33,698 bases of DNA. It comes from a virus. This document shows, in pieces, positions 2,942 to 16,142 of the stretch. A program made the translations under genes and the position numbers. Numbering within the stretch: position 1 is the stretch's first letter; the number at the start of each line of letters is the position of its first letter. Location: IMG/VR virus record IMGVR_UViG_3300038424_000156, positions 1 through 33,698 of that record; one strand, written 5' to 3'. The notes beneath the pieces were generated by a model that was not told where the DNA came from, did not search any database, and saw only the letters and a list, made by a program, of their open reading frames with translations.

Positions 2942-3108
2942 GCAAGCCAGCGCATCCTGCGGCGAGGCGTCCCTCGGAGATAACCCCGGAAGACCGGGCC
3001 GACATCGCGGTGGCGAGGAAGCGGCTTCGTGAGATCGCGAAGCACCCGGAGCGGCTGCTCGCCGGCGCGGAGTTGAAGCGCAAGCTGAAAGAATGGGAGA
3101 TCGCATGA
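2938..3108 (+). CDS. Small basic protein of unknown function, 56 aa
   Basis: The ATG at 2938 overlaps the stop of the Xre-type gene (ATGA) and has a strong AAGGAG before it. The 56 residues are rich in Arg, Lys, Ala and Glu ([33 protein letters not shown]) and look fully helical. Its stop again overlaps an ATG at 3105, the probable start of the methyltransferase. Its first codons are near-identical to those of the next gene (MSKPA). Function unknown; the coupling on both sides and the good ribosome binding site support a real gene. Confidence 0.6.
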
Positions 3109-4490
3109 GCAAGCCTGCCGACGCGAAGCTCCGCATCGAGCACATGGCGCTGGGCGAGCTGACCTCGGCTCCGCGCAACCCGCGCCGGCACGAGCTGGAG
3201 CAGATCAAGGCGTCGATGCGCCGCTTCGGCTTCGTGGCGCTCCCGGCGATCAACGAGACCACGGGCCGCCTCGTCGCGGGCCACGGCCGCCGCGACGCCC
3301 TCCTGGAGATGGAGGCCGCGGGCGAGCCACCGCCAGCGCGGGTGAAGGTGGTCCGGGGCGTCTGGCAGATCCCCGTCCTGCGCGGGGTGGCGTTCGCAAC
3401 CGATGCGGAGGCAGAGGCGTACCTGCTGGCGGACAACCGGCTCACCGAGATTGGCGGCTACGACGAAGAACTGCTGGCCAAGATGCTCGGCGAGATGAAG
3501 GAAGTCCTCGGAGGGCTGGAAGGGGTCGGGTACGACGACAAGGAAATCGCGCGGATGCTTGCGGACACTGAAGAGACTGCGGCAGGCAACTGCGATCCCG
3601 ATGATGTCACCGAGCCTCCCGCCGAGCCCATCTCGAAGCGCGGCGACCTGTGGCTGCTCGGCGAGCACCGGCTACTGTGCGGCGACTCGACGAGCGCGGA
3701 GGACGTGGCGAGGCTGATGAATGGGGAGCGGGCCGGGCTGATGAACACAGACCCGCCCTATGGCGTGGCCTACGCGAATGACGACCGACCAAATCCTGGG
3801 GTGGCGAAGCCACGGGTGGCGAATGACGATCTCAGTGACGAGGTTCTCCAAGAATTTCTGGAGGCAGCATTCAAGCCTGCGGTGGCTGTGGCGCTGAAGG
3901 AAGACGCCGCTTGGTACCTCTGGCATGCGCATCTAACCCAGGGATACTTTGCTGCTGCTGCTGCTGCTGCAAATGTCGTGCTACACCGACAAATCATCTG
4001 GGTGAAGCCGGTGCTTCTACTCGGGCGCGGGCAATACCACTGGAAGCACGAGCCCGCCTTCATGGGCTGGGTCAAAGGCCACCAGCCTCCCGACTACGGC
4101 GAGGGCAACGGCGAGCGCACGCAGACCACGGTGTGGGAGATCGGAAGCGTCACCCAAGCCGAGCGCAAAGAATTCAATCACTCCTCGCCCAAGCCGGTGG
4201 GTCTCTTTGAAATCCCCGTAATCAAGCACCTGAAGCACGGCGAGATTTGCTACGAGCCGTTCAGTGGGAGCGCCCCGCAGATCATCGCCGCCGAGATGCA
4301 TGGACGCCGCTGCTTCGCCATGGAGTTGGAGCCTCGCTACGTGGACGTGGCCGTCGCGCGCTGGGAAAAGTTCACGGGGAAGAAGGCCGTGAGAGCGGAC
4401 CCCATCGCGAAGCCCAAGACGGCGCGGGTGAAGCCTGCCAAAGCAGCGAAGCCGCCAGAGCCAGAAGCCAAGACGGATCTACCATTCTGA
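3105..4490 (+). CDS. ParB-domain / DNA methyltransferase fusion
   Basis: The product is 461 residues from ATG 3105. ATG 3093 is in frame, but GGGAG precedes 3105 and 3105 gives the ATGA overlap used elsewhere here. Residues about 10-110 are a ParB-like nuclease/partition fold ([40 protein letters not shown]). From about 170 on it is a DNA adenine/cytosine-N4 methyltransferase of the beta order: [16 protein letters not shown], catalytic DPPY at 216-219, and the SAM-binding motif EPFSGSAP at 384-391. The usual GSG is GSA here. Such fusions are common in phages and modify phage DNA, probably against host restriction. The C-terminus is a Lys/Ala/Pro-rich tail. A poly-Ala run lies near residue 283-289. 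Confidence 0.88.
3951..3970 (+). repeat. GCT trinucleotide run in the methyltransferase
   Basis: Six GCT units plus GC encode a run of seven alanines between the catalytic DPPY motif and the SAM-binding motif. Unit number changes would keep the frame, so this would alter loop length and not switch the gene off. Confidence 0.9.
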
Positions 4491-9495: not shown

Positions 9496-9501
9496 ATGGT
9501 C

Positions 9502-10089
9502 ATGAGTTTGAAGAAGCTGTCAACCTGGGCCAAGGAAAATGGGGTTCATTATCGCACTGCGATGATCTGGATGCACGAAGGAAAGCTTCCTGTGCAGGTT
9601 GTACAAACACCTGGCGGACACTACCGAGTGGTTGAGAAGTCAGTCGAGTCGCCAACGTCTGGTAAATCCGTGCTGTACGGCCGAGTGTCATCCCATGACC
9701 AGAAAGAGGATCTCGTGAGGCAGACGGCGAGGCTTCGATCATTCGCCGGCGGTCTTGGTTTGAAAGATGTCGAGATCGTGGAAGAGCTGGGCTCGGGCTT
9801 GAACGGCAAACGACCGAAGCTTCTCAAGCTGCTGGCCGATCCTACCGTTAAGAAGATTGTGGTGGAGCATCGGGATCGTCTCGCTCGCTTCGGAGTCGAG
9901 TACATCGAAGCGGCGTTGCAAGCCCAAGGACGCTTACTGGTTGTCGCCGAAGCGGGCGAGCAGAAGCTTGACTTGGTTCAAGACTTCATCGACGTGGTCA
10001 CGAGCATGTGTGCTCGCATCTACGGGCGACGAGCTGCTAGCAACAGAGCGAAGAGAGCGCTGGCAGCGGCGGCGGAGGAAACATCATGA
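9502..10089 (+). CDS. tnpA: IS607-family serine recombinase
   Basis: The product is 195 residues from ATG 9502 (ATG 9496 is two codons upstream but lies directly against the -10 box). Residues 3-45 form a MerR-like winged helix (LSTWAKENGVHYRTAMIW, HEGKLPVQVVQTPGGHYRV). The serine recombinase catalytic domain follows: LYGRVSSHDQKEDLVRQ with nucleophile Ser63, then GSGLNGKRPKL and the arginine-rich VVEHRDRLARFG. The C-terminus ends in a basic helix (GRRAASNRAKRAL). This head-to-tail order, DNA binding before catalysis, defines the IS607 type, whose enzymes move DNA through a double-strand serine-linked intermediate with little target preference. All catalytic parts look intact. The stop overlaps the next ORF (ATGA). 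Confidence 0.92.
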   Translation: MSLKKLSTWAKENGVHYRTAMIWMHEGKLPVQVVQTPGGHYRVVEKSVESPTSGKSVLYGRVSSHDQKEDLVRQTARLRSFAGGLGLKDVEIVEELGSGLNGKRPKLLKLLADPTVKKIVVEHRDRLARFGVEYIEAALQAQGRLLVVAEAGEQKLDLVQDFIDVVTSMCARIYGRRAASNRAKRALAAAAEETS

Positions 10090-10652
10090 GGTGCCTGGGA
10101 TTGTCACCACTTGGAAATCAGTGTCAAAACATAGCGGGCGGAGATGGTGTGTGTCGTAGACACCGAGGACCTGGAAAGTCGCGTCTTCCTGTTCCCACGA
10201 ATCTCGCAGCAGAGCAGGAGCGGCAGGCAACCGAGCAACAGTCAAAAAGGAAAACCAAACGGTTGCGTGTCGGGGCAAGTAGAGCAGCTTATGAGGCCGA
10301 ACAACAGCGAGCCTTGATCGAACTGACGACTAAGCTCTCCGACACGTCGTACAAGTCGATTGTAGAGGCTCGTCGAAATGGATTTGTCGAGTGGAAACGT
10401 TGGCTATATGGAGGCGAGCGGGTTGACATAAAAGGTCATACTCTTGTGCGGGGAAGTCTCGAAGCTCAATCGGTAACGGCGTGGAAGCGAGTTGGCAAGG
10501 TTGTGCTTCCCGACGTGGTTCCTCATGCAAAGCGAAGCTTCTTGATTCGAGGTGCCAAGCAAGTCACATTTCCCGTTTACCGGGAAGACCAAGTGGTCAC
10601 GATTGCCGAATGGCACGCTATCCGAGGTCGCATGGGAGCTTTTTCAGCGTGA
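10086..10652 (+). CDS. Zinc-finger protein between tnpA and tnpB, unknown role
   Basis: 188 residues, starting in the ATGA overlap with tnpA and ending in a GTGA overlap with tnpB, so the three are one translation unit. Residues 3-26 form a small treble-clef-type motif, Cys3-x9-Cys13-x9-Cys23-x2-His26 (RCLGLSPLGNQC, then GGDGVCRRH), as in short C-x-G-x-T-x-x-G-x-x-C zinc modules. After a charged linker the rest (about 75-188) is mixed alpha/beta, with VEWKRWLYGGERVDIKGHTL and VVLPDVVPHAKRSFLIRG. I do not recognise this second part. Ordinary IS607 elements contain only tnpA and tnpB. The base composition matches tnpA and tnpB, so it probably travels with them; it could be a DNA-binding accessory. 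Confidence 0.7.
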   Translation: MRCLGLSPLGNQCQNIAGGDGVCRRHRGPGKSRLPVPTNLAAEQERQATEQQSKRKTKRLRVGASRAAYEAEQQRALIELTTKLSDTSYKSIVEARRNGFVEWKRWLYGGERVDIKGHTLVRGSLEAQSVTAWKRVGKVVLPDVVPHAKRSFLIRGAKQVTFPVYREDQVVTIAEWHAIRGRMGAFSA

Positions 10653-12088
10653 AAAAGAGTCGCTTTCTCTACCTACATCCCGAGACGAATTCGGGCAAGG
10701 TAGCGTCTTTGGAAGCTCTCCAGACTGAGTACACTTCTTACCTGACGATCTGTGTTTCAACGATGCTCCAGGCTCGTCGATTCAGTCTCCCCAAGGGAGA
10801 GAGGCAGGCTTTCTTCCCTCGCTGCTCTGCACTGTCTTCTCAGATCGTCAAGAATGTGAGAGCCCACGCGGTTGCCATCGTGTCGGGCTGGGCGGCCAGC
10901 AAGTACACAGTGAAGCTCAGATCGGTTATCAGGGAAAGATTCAAGGGAGGCGAGTTTGACGAGGCGACTCGTTCGGCCCTCTGTATCCTTGGAAAGCGTC
11001 TGATCGACGTCCCGTCTGGAAAGGTCACCCAAGAGGCTCTCAATCTTTACTGGAGCTGGCTACTCGACGAAGGTGTAGTTGGAAAGTCTCCGAGGATATC
11101 CGACCGGGTGGGAATGCGATTGAGTGAGATGACCTCGATCTTCGGTAAGAGTGAGAACAGCAGGCTCGCTGTTTGGTGGATTGGGTTCAGCCATCTCGAA
11201 GCTGGGAAGTCGAGGATTCAACTCCCTCTCGTCGCCAACCCCTACGTGAAGGAAGCATCAGATGTTGCGAAGGGAGTGCTCGCTCGAAAGACCAGGCAAG
11301 GACGCTGGCGTTTCGAGGTTGTTGAACGCAAGAAATGGGAAGTGGCAGAGCTTCCCGAGAGCGCTCCCCGTCTGGGAGTGGACGTCGGACTGAACGTGAT
11401 GGCGGCCACCTCGGATGGAAGGCTTCTGGAAGCTGGGTTGAAGCCGAAATTCAATGCCTTGTATTACACAGTTCGCGATGTTCGAGCAAACCGCCAGCGA
11501 CAAGGTTTGACGGATGACTCTCCCAGGCTCAACGCTCTTGAAAGCCGGCTCACGGGACTCGTGAAGACGCTGGCGGGTACTTGCGCCAACAAGCTGATCG
11601 CCGCCCACCCCGAACATGTCTTTGTTGTTGAGGATCTCGATCTTCGCGGCTGTCGAGGTCAGAAGAGGTTCGCTTATCGAGCCTTGCATCACAGTCTTGA
11701 GTCAAAAGCTCCAACCGAAGTTGTCAACCCGGCTTACACTAGCCAGACGTGTCCTAACTGCGGTTTCGTGTCCCGCCGCAATCGAAACGGAATTAAATTT
11801 CAATGCTGCTACTGCGGCAAGATCTCCCACGCGGACGTGGTAGGAGGGTCCGGTTTGCTCAGACGTTCTGAGGACAAACAAATCGGTCTCGATGACTACC
11901 CCGCTGTGGTGAAGCCGATCCTGGAAGCACGACACGAGGAGTGGAAGAAATTCCAAGCCTCTCTCTGTGCCCTGGGACGGAAGAAAAACGCGCTCGGACC
12001 GTCGAGCCGGAGGCTTACTACCGAAGCATCGGGATTTTCCCGAGATCGGCACAGCTTCAAACTGAAGTCGGTTGGAGGTGGTCGATGA
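10649..12088 (+). CDS. tnpB: TnpB RNA-guided nuclease
   Basis: The product is 479 residues from GTG 10649, which overlaps the previous stop. ATG 10481 is in frame but would overlap the zinc-finger gene by 170 bases. The C-terminal half carries the RuvC-like nuclease: GVDVGLN with Asp245, FVVEDLDLRG with Glu328, and HADVVGG with Asp396. A four-cysteine zinc finger is inserted between the second and third motifs (C368-P-N-C371 and C386-C-Y-C389). The N-terminal half is helical and basic. TnpB proteins cut DNA guided by a short RNA transcribed from the element's right end. The usual DxNAAxN third motif reads DVVGGSGLLRR here, a variant of the DVVGAxNLL form. The catalytic residues are present, so it may be active. 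Confidence 0.9.
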   Translation: MKKSRFLYLHPETNSGKVASLEALQTEYTSYLTICVSTMLQARRFSLPKGERQAFFPRCSALSSQIVKNVRAHAVAIVSGWAASKYTVKLRSVIRERFKGGEFDEATRSALCILGKRLIDVPSGKVTQEALNLYWSWLLDEGVVGKSPRISDRVGMRLSEMTSIFGKSENSRLAVWWIGFSHLEAGKSRIQLPLVANPYVKEASDVAKGVLARKTRQGRWRFEVVERKKWEVAELPESAPRLGVDVGLNVMAATSDGRLLEAGLKPKFNALYYTVRDVRANRQRQGLTDDSPRLNALESRLTGLVKTLAGTCANKLIAAHPEHVFVVEDLDLRGCRGQKRFAYRALHHSLESKAPTEVVNPAYTSQTCPNCGFVSRRNRNGIKFQCCYCGKISHADVVGGSGLLRRSEDKQIGLDDYPAVVKPILEARHEEWKKFQASLCALGRKKNALGPSSRRLTTEASGFSRDRHSFKLKSVGGGR

Positions 12089-12122
12089 CCAATTCTTACC
12101 AATTTGGAGAACGGTGACGTGA

Positions 12123-12893
12123 ATGCCTCTCGGGGTAAACACCAGCCCTGAACTGGCCAGCGAAATCTCGCGTCTCTACCGCGCCAAGCTCACGACCCGC
12201 CAGGTCGCTGCGCAAGTAGGGTTGAGTAAATCTGGCGTGTTGCTTGTGCTGCGTCGGCGGGGAGAAATCATCTCCAGCGGGCAGAGCCGCATGCGATCGC
12301 TGCATGATTATGACCTGACGCCGGTCATGGAAGTGCTCGACGGGGAATTGCTTGGTGACGGAGCGTATGCCTGGTCATCGAGTAAGAACAGCGCGCGCTT
12401 CGATATGACGGTGGCCAAGACCAACGAGGCTCACGTGGAATTGTTGCACGGGATCTTGTCCAAGCAGATGCCACTGAAGCTGGCTCCATCGACGGGATGG
12501 TATCTTTGGAAGGGACAGAAGATCATCTCGGATCGGATGCGGATGACCTCCCTGTTCTCAAGCTCTCTGGCGAACCAAAAGCTGCGCTGGTACCCGGACG
12601 GAAAGAAAAAGCAGGCACCTGATGATCTGGTGCTGACTCCAACGGTTCTCCGACACTGGTACTACGGAGACGGATCGATGTGCAGCGGCATCATGCTGTG
12701 CTCAGAACGGTACACAGATGATGTCCTTGAGGGGCTTCGGGCAAAGCTGCGAGCCCTAGGATTTGAGACCAAGAGGTACCTGGCACACGGTAGGAGAGGC
12801 CGCCTGCACATGGGAATGAAGGATTCTCGACGGTTTCTGGAGTTCATTGGCCCGTGCGAATTGGACTGCTACCGGCACAAGTGGATCATATGA
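12123..12893 (+). CDS. LAGLIDADG homing endonuclease
   Basis: A 256-residue protein. Residues about 8-50 are a helix-turn-helix (LTTRQVAAQVGLSKSGVLLV). Two LAGLIDADG-type helices follow: LDGELLGDG at 72-80 (Asp79) and VLRHWYYGDG at 175-184 (Asp183), each ending in the catalytic acid. Two motifs make a one-chain enzyme with a pseudo-twofold active site that cuts long DNA sites, usually an allele lacking the gene. A GGAGAA lies about 12 bases before the ATG. It stops at 12891-12893, one base before the start of the minor head gene. It is free-standing: the head gene is not split in frame by it, so it is not an intein. The DNA is less GC-rich than the head genes. Confidence 0.85.
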   Translation: MPLGVNTSPELASEISRLYRAKLTTRQVAAQVGLSKSGVLLVLRRRGEIISSGQSRMRSLHDYDLTPVMEVLDGELLGDGAYAWSSSKNSARFDMTVAKTNEAHVELLHGILSKQMPLKLAPSTGWYLWKGQKIISDRMRMTSLFSSSLANQKLRWYPDGKKKQAPDDLVLTPTVLRHWYYGDGSMCSGIMLCSERYTDDVLEGLRAKLRALGFETKRYLAHGRRGRLHMGMKDSRRFLEFIGPCELDCYRHKWII

Positions 12894-14847: not shown

Positions 14848-14932
14848 CCCCGCTGGCAGACTGCCGTCACCGCCGCTGTGTTGTCCGGCGATGAACGGGG
14901 CTACCTTTCTGCCAGCGGGGGTTTGTTTTTTC
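14848..14932 (+). terminator. Strong intrinsic terminator
   Basis: A perfect 13-bp stem, CCCCGCTGGCAGA (14848-14860) with TCTGCCAGCGGGG (14908-14920), encloses a 47-base loop and is followed by GTTTGTTTTTTCT. It starts 8 bases after the stop of the 295-aa gene and separates it from the repeat array. Confidence 0.8.
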
Positions 14933-14954
14933 TGGGCTGTGCGCCGCGAAGAGT

Positions 14955-15304
14955 GGCCCCGCACGGCGAAGCCAAGCACAGTTCAACTTTTCTCCGTCAT
15001 CACCTGGCGCGGCCCCGCATCGCCTCGCGAAGCGCCGCAAAGCACAGTTCACGGTTTCTCCACCAATGCCCGGCAGCGCGGTGCCAAGCTCGGCGTGGCA
15101 AAGCACAGTTCAACTTTTCACTACGCCACGGCCAAGCCTCGCGGAGCAGCGCTGTGCTCGGCCAAGCACAGTTCACTATTTCAACACTTCTCCGCTCCGC
15201 GCAGCGAGGCCCCGCACGGCGAAGCCAAGCACAGTTCAACTTTTCCCCCATGACCAGGCCCAGCCACGCCAAGCTTCGCCACGCCCCGCTAAGCACAGTT
15301 CAAC
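14955..15304 (+). repeat. Direct-repeat array upstream of the ParB-like gene, six copies
   Basis: The box AAGCACAGTTCAACTTTTC, or a close form, begins at 14974, 15040, 15101, 15164, 15227 and 15291. All copies are on the + strand, with steps of 66, 61, 63, 63 and 64 bases, close to six helical turns. AGCACAGTTCA is common to all six; the tail varies (copy 2 CGGTTTCTC, copy 4 CTATTTC, copy 6 ends after CAAC). The 40-odd bases between boxes are GC-rich, with small dyads such as TGCC/GGCA. Copies 1 and 5 share 38 identical bases (14955-14992 and 15208-15245). The stretch from 14932 to 15323 holds no gene I can support. Confidence 0.9.
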
Positions 15305-15323
15305 CACCAACCAAGGACACAAC

Positions 15324-16022
15324 ATGCGAGTGAAACTTTCCGATCTCATCTTCGACAAGAAACTCTATCCACGCGTCGAGGTCAACTGGGTGACCGTCGT
15401 CAGCTACACCGACGCCATGCGGGCTGGCGAGAAATTCCCGCATATCGAAGTCGTCCAGCAGGGCGACAAGTGGCTCGTCGTGGATGGCTGGCATCGGTCG
15501 CACGCGGCCAAGGCGGCGCATCTCGAAACTATCGAGGCGGTCGTCATCGAGGCCCCATCCGATCGTGACCAGTTCCTCCGCGCCGTCGAGACCAACCTTC
15601 GCCACGGGCGCCATCTGAGCCCCTACGAGCGGGCCTGCATCGCGCAGCGGCTCTGCTCGGCCGAGTTCAAGTGGAGCCAGTCCAAGATCGCCGGCTTCCT
15701 CCACATGACCAAGGACAGCCTCAAGCGCATGCTCCGCAAGCGCGCGACCACCCCGGCGGCAGGCGCATGGCTCGGCAAAATCCACAAGGCCCCGCTGCAA
15801 CACCTCGTCGCGCAGGGCGAGGTCTCCTCGGAAGCGGAAGAAGCGGAGAGCATCCTTGCGGTCAAGAACCAGCAGCACCTCTTCAGCCAGGCGCTCGTCG
15901 TCTTGGAGAGCGGGATCGTCGACTTGGGCGACCCGAAGCTCTGCGCCATCCTGGACCAGCTCGCCGGCTGGTTCCGGGAGAACCGCCCGCGGGTTCGCGC
16001 TGGAATGGAGAAGGCGGCGTAA
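15324..16022 (+). CDS. ParB-like DNA-binding protein
   Basis: The product is 232 residues from ATG 15324, with AAGGA 9 bases before it. Residues about 35-80 are a ParB/Srx-type domain (FPHIEVVQQGDKWLVVDGWH, RSHAAKAA; key box VDGWHRSHAA at 53-62). In CTP-dependent ParB the arginine-rich GERRxRA box fills this place. Residues 99-140 form a ParB/KorB-like helix-turn-helix (SPYERACIAQRL, WSQSKIAGFLHMTKDSLKRM). The rest is a helical C-terminal part that may mediate dimerisation. There is no ParA partner in the window. The gene lies inside an array of eight direct repeats, six before and two after it, which suggests it binds them: as an autoregulator, as a segregation complex, or to organise phage DNA. 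That link is inference. Confidence 0.8.
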   Translation: MRVKLSDLIFDKKLYPRVEVNWVTVVSYTDAMRAGEKFPHIEVVQQGDKWLVVDGWHRSHAAKAAHLETIEAVVIEAPSDRDQFLRAVETNLRHGRHLSPYERACIAQRLCSAEFKWSQSKIAGFLHMTKDSLKRMLRKRATTPAAGAWLGKIHKAPLQHLVAQGEVSSEAEEAESILAVKNQQHLFSQALVVLESGIVDLGDPKLCAILDQLAGWFRENRPRVRAGMEKAA

Positions 16023-16071
16023 AGAGTTTTTCCGGCGCGGGGCCATGGCGAGGCGCCGCCGGGCAAAGCAC

Positions 16072-16142
16072 AGCACAGTTCAACTTTTCTTCCATCGCTG
16101 CGCCATGCCCGGCGCGGCTCGGCACAGCACAGCACAGTTCAA
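16072..16142 (+). repeat. Two further copies of the direct repeat downstream of the ParB-like gene
   Basis: AGCACAGTTCAACTTTTC at 16072-16089 and the shorter AGCACAGTTCAA at 16131-16142, 59 bases apart and in the same orientation as the six upstream copies. Each is preceded by extra CAGCA units and a GC-rich stretch. They start 50 bases after the ParB-like stop. Confidence 0.88.

Follow-up and report, generated by a model that had tools for sequence, protein, structure and literature searches.

Eight direct repeats surround a ParB-like gene in this phage contig, and the question they raise is whether they are DNA sites bound by the ParB-like protein or parts of something else. The window, meaning the whole stretch of 33,698 bases that was analysed, is an entire IMG/VR record (IMGVR_UViG_3300038424_000156) and contains the box AGCACAGTTCA eight times and nowhere else, always on the plus strand and at steps of 66, 61, 63, 63, 64, 780 and 59 bp. 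The copy number, orientation, positions and steps given in a preliminary description of the locus were all confirmed. That description had read the boxes as a centromere-like or stoperator-like array, or as an aid to DNA condensation, in a layout for which it knew of no described system. The present analysis indicates that this is very probably a tailed-phage VIPR locus, made up of vipr, six vrRNA genes, a ParB-like accessory gene and two further vrRNA genes, and therefore neither a centromere nor a stoperator. As such it does have a precedent, since the VIPR layout has been described since April 2026 (PMC13142463). According to the main text of that preprint, VIPR pairs a RAMP protein carried by phages with vrRNAs in which GGY and NN alternate; the NN bases read double-stranded DNA with skips of one base, and competing elements are thereby repressed. 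RNA binding, DNA recognition and repression are reported there for other VIPRs, and VIPR is presented as a CRISPR relative proposed to predate CRISPR (PMC13142463). No description of these pentamers earlier than the 2026 preprint was found in the literature, and the PADLOC 2023 library holds no model for these proteins.

Each box proved to be no more than the invariant 3' end of a longer unit, of which there are eight (Table 1), and the GC-rich gaps between the boxes consist of phased pentamers, about eight GCNNN in a row with the GC fixed and the NNN free, ending in GCACA-GTTCA. When each unit was read back from GTTCA by fives, GC was found in phase at 7, 8, 8, 8, 8, 8, 6 and 8 of the eight places in units 1 to 8, so that six of the eight units had the full eight, and the other four phases held 0-2. 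Runs of eight did not occur in any of 200 dinucleotide-preserving shuffles of the contig. Across 56 pentamers, with the fixed last one left out, GC was kept at 108 of 112 positions and the entropies of the three free positions (1.93, 1.83 and 1.80 bits) were near maximal, while the GCACA-GTTCA tail was identical in all eight units. The step of 61-66 bp is made up of 45 nt of pentamers and a linker of 14-21 nt, and the argument from helical turns, by which the boxes were placed on one face of the DNA, consequently falls away; the small dyads seen in the gaps likewise follow from the GCNNN pentamers and carry no signal of their own.

The variable bases differed among the units, except that units 1 and 5 had 18 of 21 free bases in common. 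The last four variable pentamers are common to these two guides and the 5' part differs, as if a duplication had been followed by divergence of the 5' end. Each eight-unit block is preceded, at a distance of 11-19 nt, by a run of T that ends in C; no such run follows the last unit of either group, which assigns it to the 5' side of the next unit. The T-run of unit 1 may be the tail of a terminator-like hairpin, and the inverted repeat just before the first unit is a possible terminator after vipr. No promoter was recognised for the window array and no obvious hairpin was seen in its tail. Searches of the array against Rfam and, by blastn, against phage genomes gave no match, nor did a search of IMG/VR with the combined box and pentamer pattern.

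Table 1. Coordinates of the features of the putative VIPR locus in the window.
Feature	Position	Strand	Basis
vipr, divergent Vipr of predicted RAMP fold, 295 aa, N-terminal extension, degenerate G-loop	13952..14839	+	HMM, AF2 model
Inverted repeat (possible terminator), 13 bp perfect, CCCCGCTGGCAGA/TCTGCCAGCGGGG, 47-nt loop, then GTTTGTTTTTT	14848..14920	+	sequence
Putative vrRNA unit 1: GCNNN pentamers (one break, GAGTG) + GCACA + GTTCA	14936..14985	+	
Putative vrRNA unit 2: 8 x GCNNN + GTTCA	15007..15051	+	
Putative vrRNA unit 3: 8 x GCNNN + GTTCA	15068..15112	+	
Putative vrRNA unit 4: 8 x GCNNN + GTTCA	15131..15175	+	
Putative vrRNA unit 5: 8 x GCNNN + GTTCA	15194..15238	+	
Putative vrRNA unit 6: 8 x GCNNN + GTTCA; no T-run after	15258..15302	+	
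ParB-like accessory gene (vap-like), 232 aa, predicted ParB/CTPase-type N-terminal domain, HTH-like middle	15324..16022	+	PHROG 1033
Putative vrRNA unit 7: 6 strict GCNNN + GTTCA; pentamers further upstream out of phase	16048..16082	+	
Putative vrRNA unit 8: 8 x GCNNN + GTTCA; no T-run after	16097..16141	+	

A search of IMG/VR with ten consecutive GCNNN pentamers returned at least 120 stretches. The arrays listed were mostly GGCNN, often with several per locus and with locus-specific tails, and included examples from phages of low GC content as well as examples immediately ahead of a ribosome-binding site. Among the matches listed, the array strand agreed with the local gene strand, by rough ORF calls, in 72 cases and disagreed in 19, which points to RNA. 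Among the ORFs located between two arrays in the matches listed, phrog_4652 was found in 20 of 38 and the ParB-like PHROG 1033 in 5 of 38, so that phrog_4652 far outnumbered any other family. Matches to phrog_4652 were present in 41 of 50 array records (among the matches listed) and in none of 50 records that served as controls and had been selected with an unrelated pattern of period seven. The family HMM constructed for this analysis detected vipr in 88 of 120 array loci compared to none of 120 control loci, and in 71 of 79 loci with two or more arrays, in both cases among the loci listed. The family was identified by its profile, which matched the PDB entry 36pp_D "SUSP1 Vipr protein" (E 4.4e-45). 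As a positive control the family HMM recovered Vipr in Felixounavirus heid (E 2.5e-48), where GGY/NN arrays lie on both sides of the gene, and a representative family model (pLDDT 95.9) matched the RAMPs of type III CRISPR.

A homologue of vipr annotated as hypothetical (P21_9; HMM E 1e-55) was also seen in LESphi2 (L387, OQ594955.1), a prophage of Pseudomonas aeruginosa LESB58, just downstream of the CI/Cro region and with GGY/NN arrays upstream. Other accounts of the arrays were considered. Arrays as marks of tRNA ends, suggested by the T-arm-like GTTC, were rejected as tRNAs occur near few arrays only, and a single regulated gene downstream was rejected as the downstream genes are diverse. 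DGR-type A-mutagenesis as a source of the NN diversity was set aside after the link to Vipr. In three loci (L029, L035 and L108) pentamer arrays are located beside or between tRNA-like T-arm sequences (GGTTCGA...), and ARAGORN placed a tRNA gene near the array in L035 and none in L029; these sequences are possibly tRNA-based tails or related to vrRNA processing.

The gene just upstream of the array in the window belongs to this family, with E-values of 4.3e-8 by a six-seed HMM and 4.3e-12 by a family HMM built without the window member. The closest functional link of the array is to vipr, a gene left unnamed when the array was tied foremost to the ParB-like gene. With a best identity of 25% the window Vipr is highly divergent; it fell below the PHROG threshold for phrog_4652 and gave no match in a single-sequence PDB search, and single-sequence searches of viral-contig and phage databases returned no close relatives of either this protein or the ParB-like protein. 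It keeps the conserved IxGxxP, W and GxxR columns and has GLMAWRP in place of the G-loop GxGDxRP. Its AF2 model (pLDDT 77, pTM 0.73) matched Csm3 chains (Foldseek E 3.4e-5; VIA Z 12.9 over 174 residues) and predicts a RAMP fold with RRM core, G-loop and thumb, of which the G-loop part of the match is weak due to the degenerate G-loop. This degeneracy together with a long branch (3.08) leaves the exact place of the window Vipr in the tree unsure.

The published systems of Escherichia phage SUSP1 and of the P. fulva prophage types (PDB 36pp) have in common with the window a phage-borne gene for a RAMP-fold Vipr; guides of tandem pentanucleotides, in which some positions are fixed and others hypervariable, with a constant 3' end; the placement of guides on both sides of the protein genes; and one accessory gene, with no CRISPR array or Cas genes seen beside the locus. 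The minimal layout of a phage VIPR locus is present as vipr, arrays, the ParB-like gene and again arrays, and phage terminase and portal genes are located in the same record. The preprint's main text gives the consensus as GGY/NN or "a related consensus" with 9-16 repeats per vrRNA (PMC13142463). The window corresponds to the related consensus only and not to strict GGY/NN, as it has GC with three free positions where the SUSP1 type has GGY with two, and, in six of eight copies, eight strict units per guide where 9-16 are given; an NCNNN half-unit further upstream may be a ninth. In its length, N-terminal extension and G-loop (Table 1), Vipr also differs between the window and these published systems. 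A pseudoknot is ascribed to the SUSP1 tail, and types II, VI and VII are described as having DNA-binding accessory proteins (PMC13142463). The accessory in the window is ParB-like, whereas the accessory genes next to vipr in the SUSP1-like heid (vap1), LESphi2 and Medea1 had no match to the ParB-like profile. ParB is not mentioned in the main text of the preprint (PMC13142463), in comparison to which the GC/NNN scaffold and the ParB-like accessory are new, although either may already be listed in parts of the preprint beyond the main text.

The likeness of the window Vipr to the Csm3/Cmr RAMP subunits of type III CRISPR would extend from the fold to the arrangement in which repeated subunits coat a guide and pairing is interrupted. 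The window differs from type III CRISPR in lacking a repeat-spacer array, with the guide information held in interrupted bases inside the repeat. Repeats of period five read by repeated protein subunits are also found in the (G/U)AGNN leaders of Bacillus RNAs bound by TRAP, which binds the fixed triplets and ignores the spacers; no TRAP homologue was found here.

Scaffold classes were assigned for 82 vipr-bearing loci with enough units among the matches listed, giving GGC/NN in 62, CGC/NN in 9, GCA/NN in 6, GCC/NN in 1 and GC/NNN in 4. The three-free-base scaffold is thus uncommon and not unique to the window, being shared with L125, L048 and the mixed case L039; L125 also has the ParB-like gene, which is absent from L048. 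GCA/NN was seen in L013, L028, L054, L081, L113 and L117, CGC/NN in L019, L042, L085 and L118, and further Vipr-linked scaffolds were GGA/NN in L385 and GTC/NN in L383. Scaffolds other than GGC/NN were partly clustered on the Vipr tree. A code of Vipr-scaffold specificity may be readable from the variant scaffolds. Pentamers with three free bases also prompt one to ask whether skipping one base is intrinsic to Vipr or can vary.

The gene between the two groups of boxes, already called ParB-like in the preliminary description, matched PHROG 1033 "ParB-like" (E 8.7e-16), and the family profile matched the PDB ParB 7o0n (E 4.5e-4); a Pfam search of the protein gave no ParB match. By these profile matches it is predicted to be a ParB-type DNA/CTP-binding protein, and like ParB, KorB and Noc it has a ParB/CTPase-type N-terminal domain and an HTH-like middle. 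When IMG/VR was searched with aligned ParB-like proteins as the only query, 17 loci were returned, four of them known array loci and two pairs sharing sequence. In the stretches fetched, vipr was located within about 1 kb of the ParB-like gene in 16 of the 17; the one without it (L377) begins at a contig end and has a match in L378, where vipr is present. Period-5 arrays were present in 15 of the 17 (12 GC-type and 3 with other scaffolds, such as the GGA/NN of L385), and only L370 and L371 had none. The proposal that gene and array belong together was thereby upheld. The Vipr tree requires at least two origins of the ParB-bearing systems, so the ParB-like gene was joined to vipr repeatedly or swapped between lineages. 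Gene neighbourhoods thus mark it as a recurrent VIPR partner, and the near-constant proximity of its homologues to vipr suggests that the ParB fold is repeatedly put to RNA-guided use with no ParA involved. The same contig encodes another ParB-type protein, unrelated to this one, at 3093-4490, where a DNA methyltransferase is fused to an N-terminal ParB-like domain (phrog_498 E 7e-118, phrog_620 E 8e-31).

A ParB/parS-like centromere for phage-plasmid maintenance, in which the AGCACAGTTCA boxes would be DNA sites occupied by the ParB-like protein, is hardly credible. The ParB-like fold and the adjacency of the gene to the boxes speak for it, but ParA, whose absence had been noted earlier, was not found by an AAA_31 search of the window record or of ten further records with the gene, which may be fragments, and the same search was positive in 14 of 14 control genomes. 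Sites of parS type are palindromic and the AGCACAGTTCA box is not, and its fixed bases are continued for 40 nt by a GC scaffold of period five, interspersed with free bases. No conserved parS-type sites were found beside the homologues of the ParB-like gene, which adjoin vipr and have as neighbours scaffolds of several kinds, GGC/NN and GGA/NN among them, whose tails are unrelated; the period of five is all that these arrays share, so that there is no common DNA box. The window thus departs from ParB, KorB and Noc systems in having neither ParA nor palindromic parS-like sites and in its link to vipr and vrRNAs. Of the self-contained system first proposed, the union of gene and array has therefore stood, and the boxes as sites bound by the ParB-like protein, whether for segregation, silencing or condensation, have given way to boxes as the constant ends of guide-RNA units.

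The boxes would likewise act as DNA if they were operators through which the operon is repressed by one of its own products, the ParB-like protein or Vipr. Such an operator array would fit the location directly upstream of the ParB-like start codon and the frequent use of multiple sites by dimeric regulators, yet it is very improbable given the strand agreement of 72 to 19 among the matches listed, the hypervariable free positions between units and, according to the preprint's main text, the co-purification of relatives' arrays with Vipr as RNA (PMC13142463). The locus could instead be a decayed, non-functional VIPR remnant with no live targets, as the divergent Vipr with its broken G-loop and long branch, the reduction of GG to NG that leaves a relaxed GC-only scaffold, one broken unit and one short unit might suggest. 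Such decay is improbable, since the fixed GC and the invariant tail need selection, both protein genes are intact open frames and an unrelated contig with the ParB-like gene (L125/L375) has the same GC/NNN scaffold.

As a VIPR locus, the array would be transcribed and cut into short vrRNAs, and Vipr subunits, one per pentamer, would coat each vrRNA, gripping its fixed GC and leaving the free bases exposed. The resulting particle would pair with the double-stranded DNA of a rival phage or plasmid, whose transcription it would block. The same target is probably also where the ParB-like protein acts: it might, for instance, load onto the DNA or spread along it and thereby reinforce repression, a role that would replace its usual one with ParA and parS. 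A more specific proposal is that three free bases are read per Vipr subunit, with the guide pairing to a continuous target of about 21-24 nt without skipping every third base, and that the guide complex is an RNA-programmed loading site for a spreading ParB-like clamp. This combination is rather unlikely; if true, it would be a ParB whose centromere is chosen by RNA.

Targets were sought with seven reading rules in the window and in 1.9 Mb of loci, where no excess over shuffled guides was found. Guides 4 and 6, read over eight NN units, matched 7 and 93 stretches of IMG/VR, respectively, which was chance-like, and a second guide converged on these sites no more often than shuffled guides did. 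Guide 4 had its best site in an unrelated portal gene, where the codon register was wrong. Since this is an orphan environmental phage, failure to find targets is weak evidence either way. VIPR is a months-old class of RNA-guided DNA recognition, and the locus may reveal how competing DNA is located and shut down by a phage. Such arrays are very common in uncultivated phages and easily mistaken for protein-binding repeats.

Elsewhere in the contig (region 1-2281), matches to the terminase large subunit (phrog_38) extend over two ORFs in different frames, 714-1499 and 1496-2281, and may reflect a frameshift, a sequencing error or a split gene. An IS607-like element with a serine resolvase (9496-10089) and a TnpB/Cas12f-like gene (10481-12088), followed by a LAGLIDADG_2 endonuclease gene (12123-12893), occupies 9496-12893 between the portal and head-morphogenesis genes.
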